This document shows, one piece after another, positions 2,638 through 25,937 of a stretch of 32,133 bases of DNA. The position numbers and the translations under genes are program-made. Numbering within the stretch: the stretch's first letter is position 1; each line of letters starts with the position of its first letter. The notes below the pieces were generated by a model. The model was not told the DNA's origin and made no database searches. It was given only the letters and a program-made list of their open reading frames with translations. This DNA is from Chloroflexota bacterium. GTDB lineage: Bacteria; Chloroflexota; UBA5177. The stretch covers positions 1 to 32,133 of the forward strand of contig JAICWV010000025.1 of NCBI GenBank assembly GCA_025966365.1. Reading direction: 5' to 3'.

Positions 2638-4182
2638 TCACTGGTCCCGCCAGGTGCGACCGTCTCTCTGGATGAGCTCGGTCCCGGCCTTGGGCCCCCA
2701 GGTCCCGGCCGCATAGTTGGGGAAGTTGGGCGGAGACATGTGCTGCCACGCCTCTAGGATAGGGGTGATGATCGCCCACGATGCCTCTACCTCGTCGGCA
2801 CGCGTGAAGAGGGTCGAGTCACCTAGAAGGACGTCCAGCAGCAAGCGCTCATAGGCGTCGGGTGACTGCGTGCCAAAGGACGAGCCGTAGAGAAAATCCA
2901 TGTACACGGGCTGCAGATCGTAGCCCTGTCCGGGTACCTTGGCCACGATTTTTAGCGACATCCCTTCGTTGGGCTGGATGCGCATGGCCAGCACGTTGGG
3001 CGTCATGGCGTCCGGATCCAGATGCTGGAAGAGCGCGAGCGGCGCGCGCTTGAACGTGACCGAGATTTCGGTCTCCCGCTTGGGGAGGCGCTTCCCGGTG
3101 CGAAGGTAGAAGGGCGTTCCCGCCCACCGCCAGTTGTCAACTTCCAGTTTCAGCGCCACGAAGGTTTCCGTCGTGGAATCCGGTGCCACGTTCGCCTCTT
3201 GCCGGTAGCCCTCGACCTGCTTGCCTCCAACCCAGCCGGGCCCGTACTGCCCCCGGACGACCCTCTCGCCGAATTGCTCCCCGGTCAGTGGCTTCACCGC
3301 GCGCAGCACCTTCACCTTCTCGTCGCGGACGGCGTGGGCATCCAGAGCGACTGGAGGGTCCATGGCAGTCAAGGTGAGAAGCTGCATCATGTGGCTCTGG
3401 ACCATATCGCGCAGCGCTCCCGCGGTCTCATAGTAGCCGCCGCGCCGGTCGATGCCGAGCTCTTCCGCGGCCGTGATCTGCACGTTATCCACATAATTCC
3501 GATTCCAGATCGGCTCGAACAGCCCATTGGCGAAGCGGAAAACCAGGATGTTCTGGACGGTCTCTTTGCCCAGGTAGTGGTCGATGCGGTAGACCTGGTC
3601 CTCCTTGAAGACCGACAGAAGCTCCTTGTTGAGCTGCTCCGCGCTCTGCAGATCGCGCCCGAAAGGCTTTTCGATGACGATGCGCGTCCAGTGCTCGCCG
3701 GAGGCATTGGGCGTGACCAGCCCGGCTTTCCCCAGCATGTCCGCGATCTGTCCGAAGACAGTGGGAGGAGTGGCCAGGTAGAAGACCCTGTTGCCGTGCG
3801 TTCCCCGCTCCTCGTCGATCTTCTGCAGGAGCTTTCCCAGTTGCTGGTAGCTACTGAGATCGGCGAAGTCGGCTTGCTCGAAGAACAGGCCTTCGGCAAA
3901 GCTGTCCCATACTTTGGGATCGACGGGCGCCAGCCGCGAGTATTGATCCACCGCCTGCCGCATGTCGGCGCGAAAATCCTCGTGCGCCTTTTCGCTCCGC
4001 GAAAAACCGACCACGGTGAAGCCATGAGGCAGCAGATGGTTGACGGCCAGGTTGTACAGCGACGGCATGAGCTTTCGGTGCGTCAGATCGCCGGTCGCGC
4101 CCATGATGACCATCGTGGCCGGCTCCGGGGTGCGCTGCTGGCGCATCCCCTTCCGCAGCGGGTTCTCAGTCGTCACAACCAT
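2638..4182 (-). CDS. zwf: Glucose-6-phosphate 1-dehydrogenase
   Basis: The product oxidises glucose-6-P to 6-phosphogluconolactone, normally with NADP+. The 514-aa protein shows the N-terminal dinucleotide motif [10 protein letters not shown] (28-37), an Arg-containing GFSRSE segment after the second strand (59-64) compatible with NADP+, EKPFGRDL (171-178) and the active-site signature RIDHYLGKE (199-207) with His202. The ATG at 4182 is 6 nt after the gnd stop, and AGGAGAG, whose last G-A-G is the final gnd codon, serves as ribosome binding site. It is followed at once by opcA, its assembly partner. Length and motifs are all normal. Confidence 0.97.
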
Positions 4183-22514: not shown

Positions 22515-23348
22515 CTACAGCCGATCGTCCTCGCGCAGGCGCCTCGACGGCTTGCGTGGCGCGGGCGCGTTCTGACGGGGCTGGTGCGAGATGCCGAGTC
22601 GCGTGTCCACTCCCCGGATCTCGCAGAGAGTTGAGAGATGGCCGTCGCCGATTCGGGAGCGAAGGCGGGGCTCGATCTCATCGGGGCTGAGGTTGGTGGT
22701 GATGACAGTCGACAGCGCCGAGTTGTAGCGATGGTTCAGGATCTGATAGAGCTTTTCCTGCGCCCAGGCGGTGGACGTCTGCGTGCCCAGGTCGTCCAGG
22801 ATAAGCAGCGGCGTATTGCGCACCGTCTCGAACAGCTCGTCGTAGGTCACGTCGCTGGTGGGGCTGAACGTCGACCTCAGATGGTCCAGGAGATCCGGAA
22901 CCACGATGAACACGGCGGGCTCGCCTGAGGAGACCCGATAGTTGGCCACCGCCGCCGCCAGATGCGTCTTGCCGGTCCCGAAAGTTCCCCACAGAATCAG
23001 CCATCCCTGGGGGTTTTCGGCGTAGGTGCGCGCAACTTTCCAGGCCGCGTCGGGGCTCCGCGCTGGCGGCGTCCCCTCTTTGACCTTGCGGATGAAGCTC
23101 TCAAAGGTGAGCCGCTGGAGCGGCCCCAGATTGCTTTTCTCCATCAGACGCTCGATCCGCTTCCGCTCCAGATCGCGCCGCGTGCACTCGCAGGCGATGA
23201 TCTGACCGAAGCGTGGGTCATCGGGCGTCACGTCGTAGCGCAGGTAGCCGGCCCCACCACATATTCCGCAGGTCTCGCCATCCGGCTCAGGCAGATCCTC
23301 GCGCCGGACCACCTGTGCCCGGCGAAGCACATCATTCAGAGATTCCAT
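22515..23348 (-). CDS. DnaI/DnaC-like AAA+ helicase loader
   Basis: The 277-aa protein has an N-terminal zinc-binding set of cysteines (27, 30, 53, 55) and an AAA+ ATPase domain with Walker A GTFGTGKT (121-128), Walker B LLILDD (181-186), sensor ITTN (216-219) and an arginine-rich RLRSRIGDG (228-236). Proteins of this design load the replicative helicase DnaB onto DNA; the nearby dnaB supports this strongly. The related IstB transposition proteins are excluded by context, since no IstA gene is present. The ATG at 23348 has GGGAGGT 4 nt upstream; the frame open to 23474 belongs to the dnaD-like gene, which it overlaps by 17 nt. Confidence 0.9.
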   Translation of the reverse strand: MESLNDVLRRAQVVRREDLPEPDGETCGICGGAGYLRYDVTPDDPRFGQIIACECTRRDLERKRIERLMEKSNLGPLQRLTFESFIRKVKEGTPPARSPDAAWKVARTYAENPQGWLILWGTFGTGKTHLAAAVANYRVSSGEPAVFIVVPDLLDHLRSTFSPTSDVTYDELFETVRNTPLLILDDLGTQTSTAWAQEKLYQILNHRYNSALSTVITTNLSPDEIEPRLRSRIGDGHLSTLCEIRGVDTRLGISHQPRQNAPAPRKPSRRLREDDRL

Positions 23349-23958
23349 CCGGACCTCCCGTTTCTTCCCAGCGCGCCAGGATGGCCTCGATATAGCGCCA
23401 ATTGCGCCTATTGTAGTGAACAGCCTCATCGAGCGCCCGCGCGATCCACAGACGAGGGTACGATCGCTCCGCATCGCGCAGCCGCTCGGCCATGAGCGGG
23501 GTCAATGGGCCGATGGCGTGTTCGTACAGCCCGAAGATGTTGGGCCGGAATACCGTCACCTCCGACTCATCCTCGACATCCAGAGAGGCGGCTGCGGCAT
23601 CGTCTCCCCGCATCAGCAGCTTGACCGACGTCTCGTTTTCTTCCGTTCCCAACATGAAAACCACGTCGGCCCGGCCGGCTTTGCGTCGAACCAAGCGCAG
23701 GAGCGTGCCGTCGGCTACTGCCCGATCCAGTCCGGCTTTAAGGCGCTCCTCGGCAGGTTCGGGGCTACCGGGACCGGCAATGTCCCGCAGGATATCGGGA
23801 GCCAGCAGCGCGGTCATGGGCACCGCCGGAGCACTATCCCGTGCAGCGACGTACGCCACGTATAACACCGCTTTGAGCTGCGCCAGGTCGCGAATCCGCG
23901 GCAGAAGCGCGCGGAAAAGCTCCTCGTCGATGAGCACGGCCTCACGAGCGGTCGTCAT
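23332..23958 (-). CDS. dnaD: DnaD-like primosome protein
   Basis: The 208-aa protein has an N-terminal region that could be a winged helix (about 10-105) and a C-terminal DnaD/DnaB2 domain (about 140-200): LYEHAIGPLTPLM, a helix with YPRLWIARALDEAV and the signature YIEAILARW (189-197). In Bacillus such proteins bring the helicase loader to DNA at the origin and at restart sites. The ATG at 23958 has TGGAGA 4-5 nt upstream and lies inside the end of dnaB, overlapping by 17 nt. The loader gene follows with another 17-nt overlap. The family is well supported by the signature and the neighbourhood. Confidence 0.86.
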   Translation of the reverse strand: MTTAREAVLIDEELFRALLPRIRDLAQLKAVLYVAYVAARDSAPAVPMTALLAPDILRDIAGPGSPEPAEERLKAGLDRAVADGTLLRLVRRKAGRADVVFMLGTEENETSVKLLMRGDDAAAASLDVEDESEVTVFRPNIFGLYEHAIGPLTPLMAERLRDAERSYPRLWIARALDEAVHYNRRNWRYIEAILARWEETGGPDGISE

Positions 23959-25294
23959 ACTTCTCCAGATTGGAGAAACGCATCAGCGCCTCCTGGAAAA
24001 ACAGCGAGACCTTTCCCGTGGGGCCGTTACGGTGCTTGGCCACCAGGATGTCAGCCACATGCGGCCGCTCCGTATCCCGGTTATATACAACATCTCTATA
24101 AATAAACATTACGATGTCAGCGTCCTGCTCAATGCTTCCGCTTTCGCGAAGGTCGGAAAGCATGGGCTCGTGATTGGGACGCTGCTCGGGGGCGCGGGAG
24201 AGCTGGGACAGTGCCAGAACCGGGATGTCGAGGTCGCGGGCCAGCGCTTTGAGTGATCGGGAGATCGCCGAGATCTCCTGGACCCGGCTCTCACGTGACG
24301 AGCTCTCCATCAGCTGCAGGTAATCCACGATGAGCAAGCCAAGGCCCTGTTCGGCGTCCAGCCGGCGCGCCTTGCTGCGCATCTCAACGATCGAGAGCCC
24401 CGGGGTGTCGTCGATGAAAATCGGCGCCTCCGAGAGAATGCCGACCGCGGTCACCAGCCGCTCCCAGTCCGACTCGGACATGCGGCCGCTGCGAAGCCGT
24501 TGCATCTCCACGTGGGCCTGCATGGTAATGAGGCGTTGCGCGATCTGCTCCGACGACATCTCCAGGCTGAAAATTCCCACCGGCAGCTTCGACTTGAGTG
24601 CCACGGAGTGGGCGATGTTCAGGCATAAGCTCGTCTTACCCATGCTCGGTCTGGCGGCAAGGATGATGAGGTCCGACTGCTGCAATCCGCTGGTCAGCCG
24701 GTCGAGGTCGATCAGGCCCGTCGAGATGCCGGTCAGCTCGCTCTCACGCGAATGGATCTGATCGATCTTCTCGTACACCTCGGCCAGGATCTGGCCGATA
24801 GGCTGGAAGTCGCGGGTGACGCGCTCGCGGGAGATTTCGAAGAGGACGCGCTCCGCCTCTTCCAGCGCCACATCTGCCTCGTTGGTCTGGTCGCGGCCGA
24901 TAGCCGAGATCCTTCCACCGGCGTCAATCAGGCGGCGAAGGACCGCAAGGCGCTCCACCACTCGGGCGTAGTACTCGACGTTGATGGAGCTGGGAACGAT
25001 AGCGGCGAGGGACGCCAGATAGGCGACTCCGCCGATGTCGTCCAGACGATCCAGCGACTGGAGATGGTTCGCCAGCAAGACCGTGTCCGTGGGCCGGTCC
25101 AGGCTATACAGGGACAGCATGCTGCGATAGATCTCGGCGTTGACCGGCAGGTAGAAATCCTCCGGCTTGAGGAAGGAGGCGATTCGCTCGATCGCGCCCG
25201 GATCGATCAGCAGGCTACCGAGAACGGCCTGCTCCGCCTCGATATCCTGCGGAAGGGATCCTTCATCAGGGCCGTAGATGGGCTGATTGACCAT
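23942..25294 (-). CDS. dnaB: Replicative DNA helicase DnaB
   Basis: DnaB is the hexameric helicase of the replication fork. The 450-aa protein has the N-terminal domain starting with LPQDIEAEQAVLGSLL (14-29), a linker and the RecA-like domain with Walker A ARPSMGKTSL (214-223), GIFSLEMSSEQ (240-250), Walker B LLIVDYLQLM (320-329) and the SQLSR segment near the C-terminus. No intein is present. The ATG at 25294 has its AGGAG 13 nt upstream, which is rather far. It opens the operon dnaB-dnaD-loader-phosphoesterase and has its own candidate promoter. Confidence 0.97.
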   Translation of the reverse strand: MVNQPIYGPDEGSLPQDIEAEQAVLGSLLIDPGAIERIASFLKPEDFYLPVNAEIYRSMLSLYSLDRPTDTVLLANHLQSLDRLDDIGGVAYLASLAAIVPSSINVEYYARVVERLAVLRRLIDAGGRISAIGRDQTNEADVALEEAERVLFEISRERVTRDFQPIGQILAEVYEKIDQIHSRESELTGISTGLIDLDRLTSGLQQSDLIILAARPSMGKTSLCLNIAHSVALKSKLPVGIFSLEMSSEQIAQRLITMQAHVEMQRLRSGRMSESDWERLVTAVGILSEAPIFIDDTPGLSIVEMRSKARRLDAEQGLGLLIVDYLQLMESSSRESRVQEISAISRSLKALARDLDIPVLALSQLSRAPEQRPNHEPMLSDLRESGSIEQDADIVMFIYRDVVYNRDTERPHVADILVAKHRNGPTGKVSLFFQEALMRFSNLEKYDDRS

Positions 25295-25330
25295 GAACCG
25301 GGACAGACTCCTCCAGCAGCGGCTATCCGT

Positions 25331-25359
25331 ACCATAAACCAGCGGAGCGCGCCGGGCAA
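25331..25359 (-). promoter_or_regulatory. Candidate dnaB promoter
   Basis: TTGCCC (25359-25354) and TATGGT (25336-25331) have a 17-nt spacer, each matching consensus at four of six positions. The predicted start near 25324 gives a leader of about 30 nt. It lies just downstream of the repeat cluster at 25382-25434. Confidence 0.5.
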
Positions 25360-25381
25360 TTCAGGATTTGGCGGCGCGGAG

Positions 25382-25434
25382 CCAAACTGCTGGAGCCGGG
25401 CCAAAGTTGTGGAAGCGAGGCCGGAACTTGTGCA
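25382..25434 (+). repeat. Three degenerate direct repeats upstream of dnaB
   Basis: CCAAACTGCTGGA (25382-25394), CCAAAGTTGTGGA (25401-25413) and CGGAACTTGTGCA (25422-25434) share a CCAAA-x-T-x-x-TGGA pattern. They start 19 and 21 nt apart, about two helix turns. They lie between rplI and the dnaB promoter, so a regulator or initiator binding site is plausible. Confidence 0.45.
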
Positions 25435-25436
25435 CA
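25428..25436 (+). promoter_or_regulatory. DnaA-box-like sequence
   Basis: TTGTGCACA matches the DnaA box consensus TTWTNCACA at eight of nine positions. A weaker seven-of-nine match on the other strand lies at 25408-25416. Both fall within the repeat cluster upstream of dnaB. The number of boxes is too small for an origin. Confidence 0.35.
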
Positions 25437-25450
25437 GCTCGTGGATGCGG

Positions 25451-25460
25451 CTGTCGACAG
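25451..25460. repeat. Perfect 10-bp palindrome after rplI
   Basis: CTGTCGACAG is its own reverse complement and lies 6 nt after the rplI stop. It has no loop and no T-tract, so it is not a terminator. It could be a binding site for a dimeric protein or chance. Confidence 0.3.
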
Positions 25461-25466
25461 ACGGGG

Positions 25467-25937
25467 CTACGGCGTCGCCGGTTCTCCCTCAGGCACAAGC
25501 TCCACGCGCACGGTGCCATCGATGCCGTGCTCCAACTTCACCGGTACCGTGTGGACGCCGATGGTCTTGAGCGGCTCCTTCAACTCGATGCGGTGCCGGT
25601 CGATGGGGACCGCCGCTTGCTTCTGCAGCGCCTCGGCGATGTCCTTGTTGGTCACCGAACCATAGATGCGGCCCTGCTCGCCCAGTTTGACCGGAATATG
25701 CAGGGTAATGTCCTGAAGGTGACGCGCCATGGCGTCGGCACTCTCTTTGGCACGTGCCACCTGCGACTCGCGAACCTGCTTGTTCGAGTTCAGCGCCGAT
25801 ACATTGGCGTTTGACGCTTCGACTGCCAGACCACGCGGCTGCAAGAAGTTACGAAAGTATCCGGGCGTAACCTGCTTGACGTCTCCGGCATGCCCCAGGT
25901 TGGGCACGTCCTGTTTCAAAATCACCTTGACTGACAT
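25467..25937 (-). CDS. rplI: Large ribosomal subunit protein bL9
   Basis: The product is a two-domain 50S protein that reaches along the ribosome surface and helps keep reading frame. The 156-aa protein has the normal length, with VKVILKQDVPNLGHAGDV (3-20) and GYFRNFLQPRGLA (26-38) at the N-terminus, the long connecting helix, and GRIYGSVTNKDIAEAL in the C-terminal domain. The ATG at 25937 has GGAGGGA upstream. It lies 18 nt after rho. In many bacteria rplI sits next to dnaB, as here. Confidence 0.97.
   Translation of the reverse strand: MSVKVILKQDVPNLGHAGDVKQVTPGYFRNFLQPRGLAVEASNANVSALNSNKQVRESQVARAKESADAMARHLQDITLHIPVKLGEQGRIYGSVTNKDIAEALQKQAAVPIDRHRIELKEPLKTIGVHTVPVKLEHGIDGTVRVELVPEGEPATP

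Follow-up and report, generated by a model that had tools for sequence, protein, structure and literature searches.

A three-box array upstream of dnaB and of a second dnaA gene in Chloroflexota: a probable DnaA-family operator

The gap between rplI and dnaB in a Chloroflexota genome raises the question of whether the supply of the replicative helicase and its loader is tied to the initiator at this site. An earlier note on this DNA had proposed such a link, in the form of a control region in front of dnaB. The window analyzed is a whole contig of 32,133 nt (G000:C246) from a 3.59 Mb assembly of 253 contigs. Its minus strand carries, in this order, rho, rplI (25467..25937), dnaB for the replicative helicase (23942..25294; Pfam DnaB_C, 5.1e-110), a gene for a DnaD-domain protein that overlaps the 3' end of dnaB (23332..23958; TIGR01446, 8.4e-9) and a gene for a DnaC/DnaI-like helicase loader ATPase (22515..23474) whose scores do not reach the curated cut-offs set for the named loader families. 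The last three form an operon. rplI and dnaB, both on the minus strand, are separated by 172 nt (25295-25466) with a G+C content of 64%. The class sample comprised seven genomes, among them the family of five (G000 to G004, with G000 the host) and G005 of the same order.

The array in the rplI-dnaB gap

The gap contains three TNCAC cores on the minus strand at 0, +11 and +32 (offsets 1, 12 and 33), spaced by about one and two helical turns. These cores and their exact 11/21 spacing had been missed in the earlier note. The whole element is 39 nt long (25408..25446, minus strand) and matches RTCCAC-N5-DYRCACR-N14-DTCCACR without a mismatch, a pattern that was derived from the arrays it then matched, G004 excepted. 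We spotted the 0/11/32 spacing by eye on comparing the dnaB gap with the dnaA flanks, so that the later tests are partly post hoc. Box 1 (GCATCCACG, 25440..25448) has the core TCCAC, and a core at the same offset is found before dnaB in G001 and before the second dnaA gene, dnaA2, in G000 to G004. Box 2 (CTGTGCACA, 25429..25437) has the core TGCAC and reads TTGTGCACA on the opposite strand, one base on. Box 3 (GCTTCCACA, 25408..25416) again has TCCAC. Two of the cores end as TNCACA and one as TNCACG. The array has no exact match to the canonical 9-mer TTWTNCACA: the best on the array strand has two mismatches, TTGTGCACA on the opposite strand has one, and the 5' TT with which canonical boxes begin is missing from boxes 1 and 2. 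A motif scan found no exact TTWTNCACA in the whole gap. The 0/11/32 TNCAC triple is rare, since it appeared in only 13 of 2,000,000 simulated 172-nt gaps.

Attention had been drawn to this gap by other features. An eight-of-nine DnaA box was claimed and holds up: TTGTGCACA at 25428 (plus strand) is the sole match to TTWTNCACA with at most one mismatch between 25250 and 25500, in a window with nine such sites. The window's sole exact TTWTNCACA, TTATCCACA, lies at 3485-3493. Three repeated 13-mers are also present as described, at 25382, 25401 and 25422 on the plus strand, with spacings of 19 and 21 nt and pairwise identities of 10, 9 and 8 of 13. However, their rarity is only moderate, as their score is equalled by one of 119 fragments of 172 nt drawn at random from the window. 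We rejected the 13-mer family as the functional unit, because its first member (25382..25394, plus strand) is degenerate and contains no TNCAC core and the array is on the minus strand; the TNCAC cores take its place. The core of box 1 (25441-25445) falls outside the 13-mers. The perfect palindrome CTGTCGACAG is indeed found at 25451-25460, but with 46 perfect 10-bp palindromes in the window, or 0.11 per 80 nt, its frequency is that of chance and it was discarded as a site.

The dnaB promoter named in the earlier note is a weak candidate. A sigma-70-like TTGCCC-17-TATGGT can be read by eye at 25331..25359 (minus strand), but it was not picked up by a promoter scan that required 9 of 12 positions. 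A terminator in the gap was rejected, since the sole terminator-like match overlaps the promoter-like element. With elements chosen by eye, the distance from box 3 to the -10-like hexamer of dnaB is 71 nt in the host and 60 nt in G001, and the distance from box 3 to TTATSGTCAA before dnaA2 is 85, 65, 84, 74 and 74 nt in G000, G001, G002, G003 and G004. Because the array lies upstream of the polymerase site and the promoters are weak, activation would be weakly favored.

Recurrence of the array

The same array stands before dnaB in G001, the closest relative of the host, so that two of the five family genomes carry it there. A comparison of the rplI-dnaB gap among relatives, suggested in the earlier note, thus speaks for conservation in the nearest genome but not in G002, G003 and G004, where the gap is about 36, 32 and 26 nt and holds no array (lengths are approximate where the DnaB match starts after residue 1). 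Among G001 to G004 only the gap of G001 is comparable. Upstream of dnaA2, each of the five family genomes has the array, either in exact form or slightly varied. The arrangement is kept in G000, G002 and G004 and varies in G001 (cores at 1/10/33) and G003 (1/12/34). G005 has no array of this geometry; by eye, three TCCAC cores with other spacings lie upstream of its dnaA2. Pattern and bare-core searches of the class genomes gave no array match upstream of dnaA1, the other dnaA gene.

The bare TNCAC cores at 0/11/32 occur three times in the 3.59 Mb host genome, before dnaA2, before dnaB and before a gene for a BTAD/AAA regulator, and the reversed control gave no match. In the seven class genomes there are ten matches (reversed control, one): five before dnaA2 or dnaB, the one before the BTAD/AAA regulator gene of the host, two others in G002, of which one is inside a long open frame, and two in G006. 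With the full pattern, the same genomes hold five exact matches, all before dnaA2 (G000, G001 and G002) or dnaB (G000 and G001), and a single match with one mismatch, before dnaA2 of G004, compared with one match of the reversed control at up to one mismatch. When two mismatches are allowed the number rises to 16, and the ten further matches against five reversed ones indicate that the two-mismatch matches are mostly background. Across 301 Chloroflexota genomes the full pattern has seven exact matches in five genomes, the two outside the family lying inside long open frames; among the matches listed there was none of the reversed control. A version with stricter-ended cores gave 29 matches in 24 of the 301 genomes versus two reversed, and several of the 29 belong to tandem repeats or fall within open frames.

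A PWM was trained only on four of the arrays upstream of dnaA2 (G000, G001, G002 and G004). It places the dnaB array at the top of the window with 21.5 bits, the runner-up scoring 6.4, and in L129 it ranks the dnaB array of G001 second (17.3 bits), behind a training array. In 4 Mb of simulated sequence (one strand) nothing scored as high as either dnaB array. The array before dnaA2 in G003, which is shifted by 1 nt, reaches 13.6 bits and the BTAD array 25.7 bits. The latter, which is the host's third array, is located at L169:4904-4942 (G000:C94). It lies just downstream of a consensus-like promoter, TTGACA-17-TAAGTT, read by eye, and this position would suit repression. A TTCACA triple of the same spacing is present in six f18 genomes (L185 to L190), just downstream of one gene. 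In L186, the sole one of these loci scanned with Pfam, this gene encodes a response regulator; open frames occupy the corresponding places in the others.

Two DnaA proteins and the box clusters

Searching the host with PF08299 identified DnaA1 and a longer DnaA2, both with N-terminal, ATPase and DNA-binding domains. In 81 Chloroflexota genomes, the whole class included, this profile has one match in 64, at least two in 13 and none in four. The dnaA2 gene lies at L128:5673-7358 (G000:C241), after comEC-like, rlmD-like and maf-like genes, and at L129:4366-6027 in G001 (G001:C79). It is found on one contig with rplI in G001, G002, G004 and G005. In G003, with an assembly that is 84% complete, DnaA2 alone was found. 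G004 has two additional DnaA-domain loci on C28 (L125 and L126), which brings its total to four.

DnaA2 is extended at its N-terminus by about 130 residues with eight conserved cysteines in all six genomes G000 to G005. The extension occurs in six of the 121 Chloroflexota genomes sampled, all of them in the order of the window. In the G001 protein it has no Pfam match above the cut-off, and the eight cysteines possibly bind zinc. In the open-licence papers searched, we found no DnaA described as carrying a Cys-rich extension or one that binds zinc. The recognition helix of DnaA2 reads RNH in all five family genomes, where 27 of 29 other DnaA-domain loci have RDH. Of the remaining two, a G006 frame of 182 residues has LNH, and L126 of G004 showed no such motif. 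The extended DnaA of G005 has RDH. DnaA1 retains the canonical GGRDHTTV helix. According to the excerpted text of PMC5742627, the recognition helix reads the TnCACA of the box and Arg399 reads the TTA. The DnaA2 of the host keeps an arginine aligned to Arg399, as counted on alignments.

Directly downstream of dnaA1 lies an origin-like cluster (L127:4142-4290, G000:C22) that is conserved in G001, G002 and G004 and consists of a 21-nt tandem pair, an opposing TATCCAC and then a TTATG motif. In all four family genomes that yielded a dnaA1, TTTTCCACA is joined here by a second box exactly 21 nt off; G005 has one core downstream of dnaA1. Box 3 before dnaA2 is TTTTCCACA as well, in G000 and G002. 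The tandem spacing of 21 nt is thus common to the dnaB array and the cluster downstream of dnaA1, and like the array, its rarity and its recurrence before dnaA2 and dnaB it is established by computation. The use of dnaN as an origin landmark was dropped, because the host dnaN is on contig C166 and adjoins neither dnaA. Upstream of dnaG in G026, exact TTATCCACA boxes are found at L182 positions 1498, 1509, 1530 and 1541, with spacings of 11, 21 and 11, in a very dense box region. The 3,038-base dnaG loci hold 36 exact TTWTNCACA in L182 (G026:C2) and 29 in L183 (G278:C1), nearly all upstream of dnaG, and the dense region is possibly the origin in that family.

Candidate binders and relation to known systems

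Could the gap belong to a replication origin instead of serving as a promoter element? Several DnaA-type boxes do adjoin the helicase gene, but the G+C-rich gap has no A+T-rich unwinding region and no exact canonical box, and the cluster with opposing boxes downstream of dnaA1 is the better candidate; we regard an origin in the gap as extremely unlikely. Chance, in the sense of functionless degenerate repeats in a G+C-rich gap, fits the weakness of the 13-mers and the palindrome by themselves and the missing of a comparable gap in three of four family relatives. However, a triple so seldom produced in simulated gaps recurs before dnaB of G001 and before the dnaA2 genes, and this makes chance very improbable. 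An unrelated regulator, whose operator would be a repeat that contains TNCAC by coincidence, might be suspected because boxes 1 and 2 differ from TTA in their 5' flanks and because a further match lies before the BTAD/AAA regulator gene. Its remaining targets would be a dnaA paralog and dnaB, though, TTTTCCACA serves as box 3 before dnaA2 in two genomes, and the same geometry lies inside dense canonical DnaA-box clusters of other Chloroflexota; such a regulator therefore seems improbable.

A rather doubtful but serious possibility is that canonical DnaA1 reads the array as part of an ordinary DnaA regulon, with dnaA2 merely one of its targets. The cluster downstream of dnaA1 has the same core and the 21-nt tandem pair, DnaA1 has kept its canonical helix, and predicted boxes upstream of dnaB are reported for Caulobacter in the excerpted text of PMC8203912. 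On the other hand, dnaA1 itself is without an upstream array match, and boxes 1 and 2 make poor canonical boxes. Within the class sample, moreover, the array accompanies the RNH form of DnaA2.

Judged from sequence, the array is probably a DnaA-family operator, for DnaA2 or DnaA1, that couples initiator and helicase-loading supply. The idea of a control region linking helicase and loader supply to the initiator fits, because the same array is found upstream of the dnaA paralog, although the 13-mers are not its unit. Three DnaA-type sites on one helix face (0/+11/+32), about 70 nt before the -10 region of dnaB, would be bound cooperatively by a DnaA-family protein, more likely DnaA2 than DnaA1. 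The bound protein would set dnaB transcription and, given their place in the operon, also that of the genes for the DnaD-like and the DnaC/DnaI-like loader proteins. With the same operator before dnaA2 the factor would be autoregulated, and the supplies of initiator paralog and helicase loading would then vary together. From the array we infer binding and its cooperative nature, as well as which protein binds and that transcription is controlled. More tentatively, DnaA2, with its eight-cysteine extension and changed recognition helix, may be a dedicated regulator that arose from a duplicated initiator and controls itself and the helicase-loading operon via its own operator, with DnaA1 firing the origin. 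The same set of boxes before dnaB and the second dnaA suggests a single switch for both supplies. This would provide a cis-element of defined geometry with two candidate binders, by which helicase-loading capacity could be matched to initiator level beyond the usual model organisms, and it may be a case of a duplicated initiator with one copy perhaps turned regulator.

More than one DnaA per genome is also found in Chlamydiae, where the paralogs DnaA1 and DnaA3 are treated as transcription factors and the ChIP targets of both were not predicted (PMC4989314); in contrast to DnaA2 here, a Cys-rich extension and a shared dnaB operator are not mentioned for them in the excerpted text of that paper. 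Autoregulatory DnaA boxes are described for the dnaA promoters of E. coli, B. subtilis, Streptomyces and others (PMC8203912, as excerpted). As in these promoters, initiator-type boxes precede a dnaA gene, but in this family the array stands before the paralog dnaA2 and was not found before dnaA1. The closest parallel in kind concerns dnaB itself: in the DnaA regulon of Caulobacter crescentus, dnaB is preceded by predicted DnaA boxes (Hottes et al. 2005, cited in the excerpted text of PMC8203912). Both there and here, DnaA-type boxes lie before the replicative helicase gene and the initiator is proposed as a transcriptional controller. Unlike what that text gives for C. crescentus, the boxes described here form a fixed three-box array that is common to the upstream region of a Cys-rich DnaA paralog and precedes a dnaB-dnaD-loader operon. 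Predicted DnaA boxes before dnaB are thus already known as a kind; what is new here is that the array is paired with a Cys-rich DnaA paralog.
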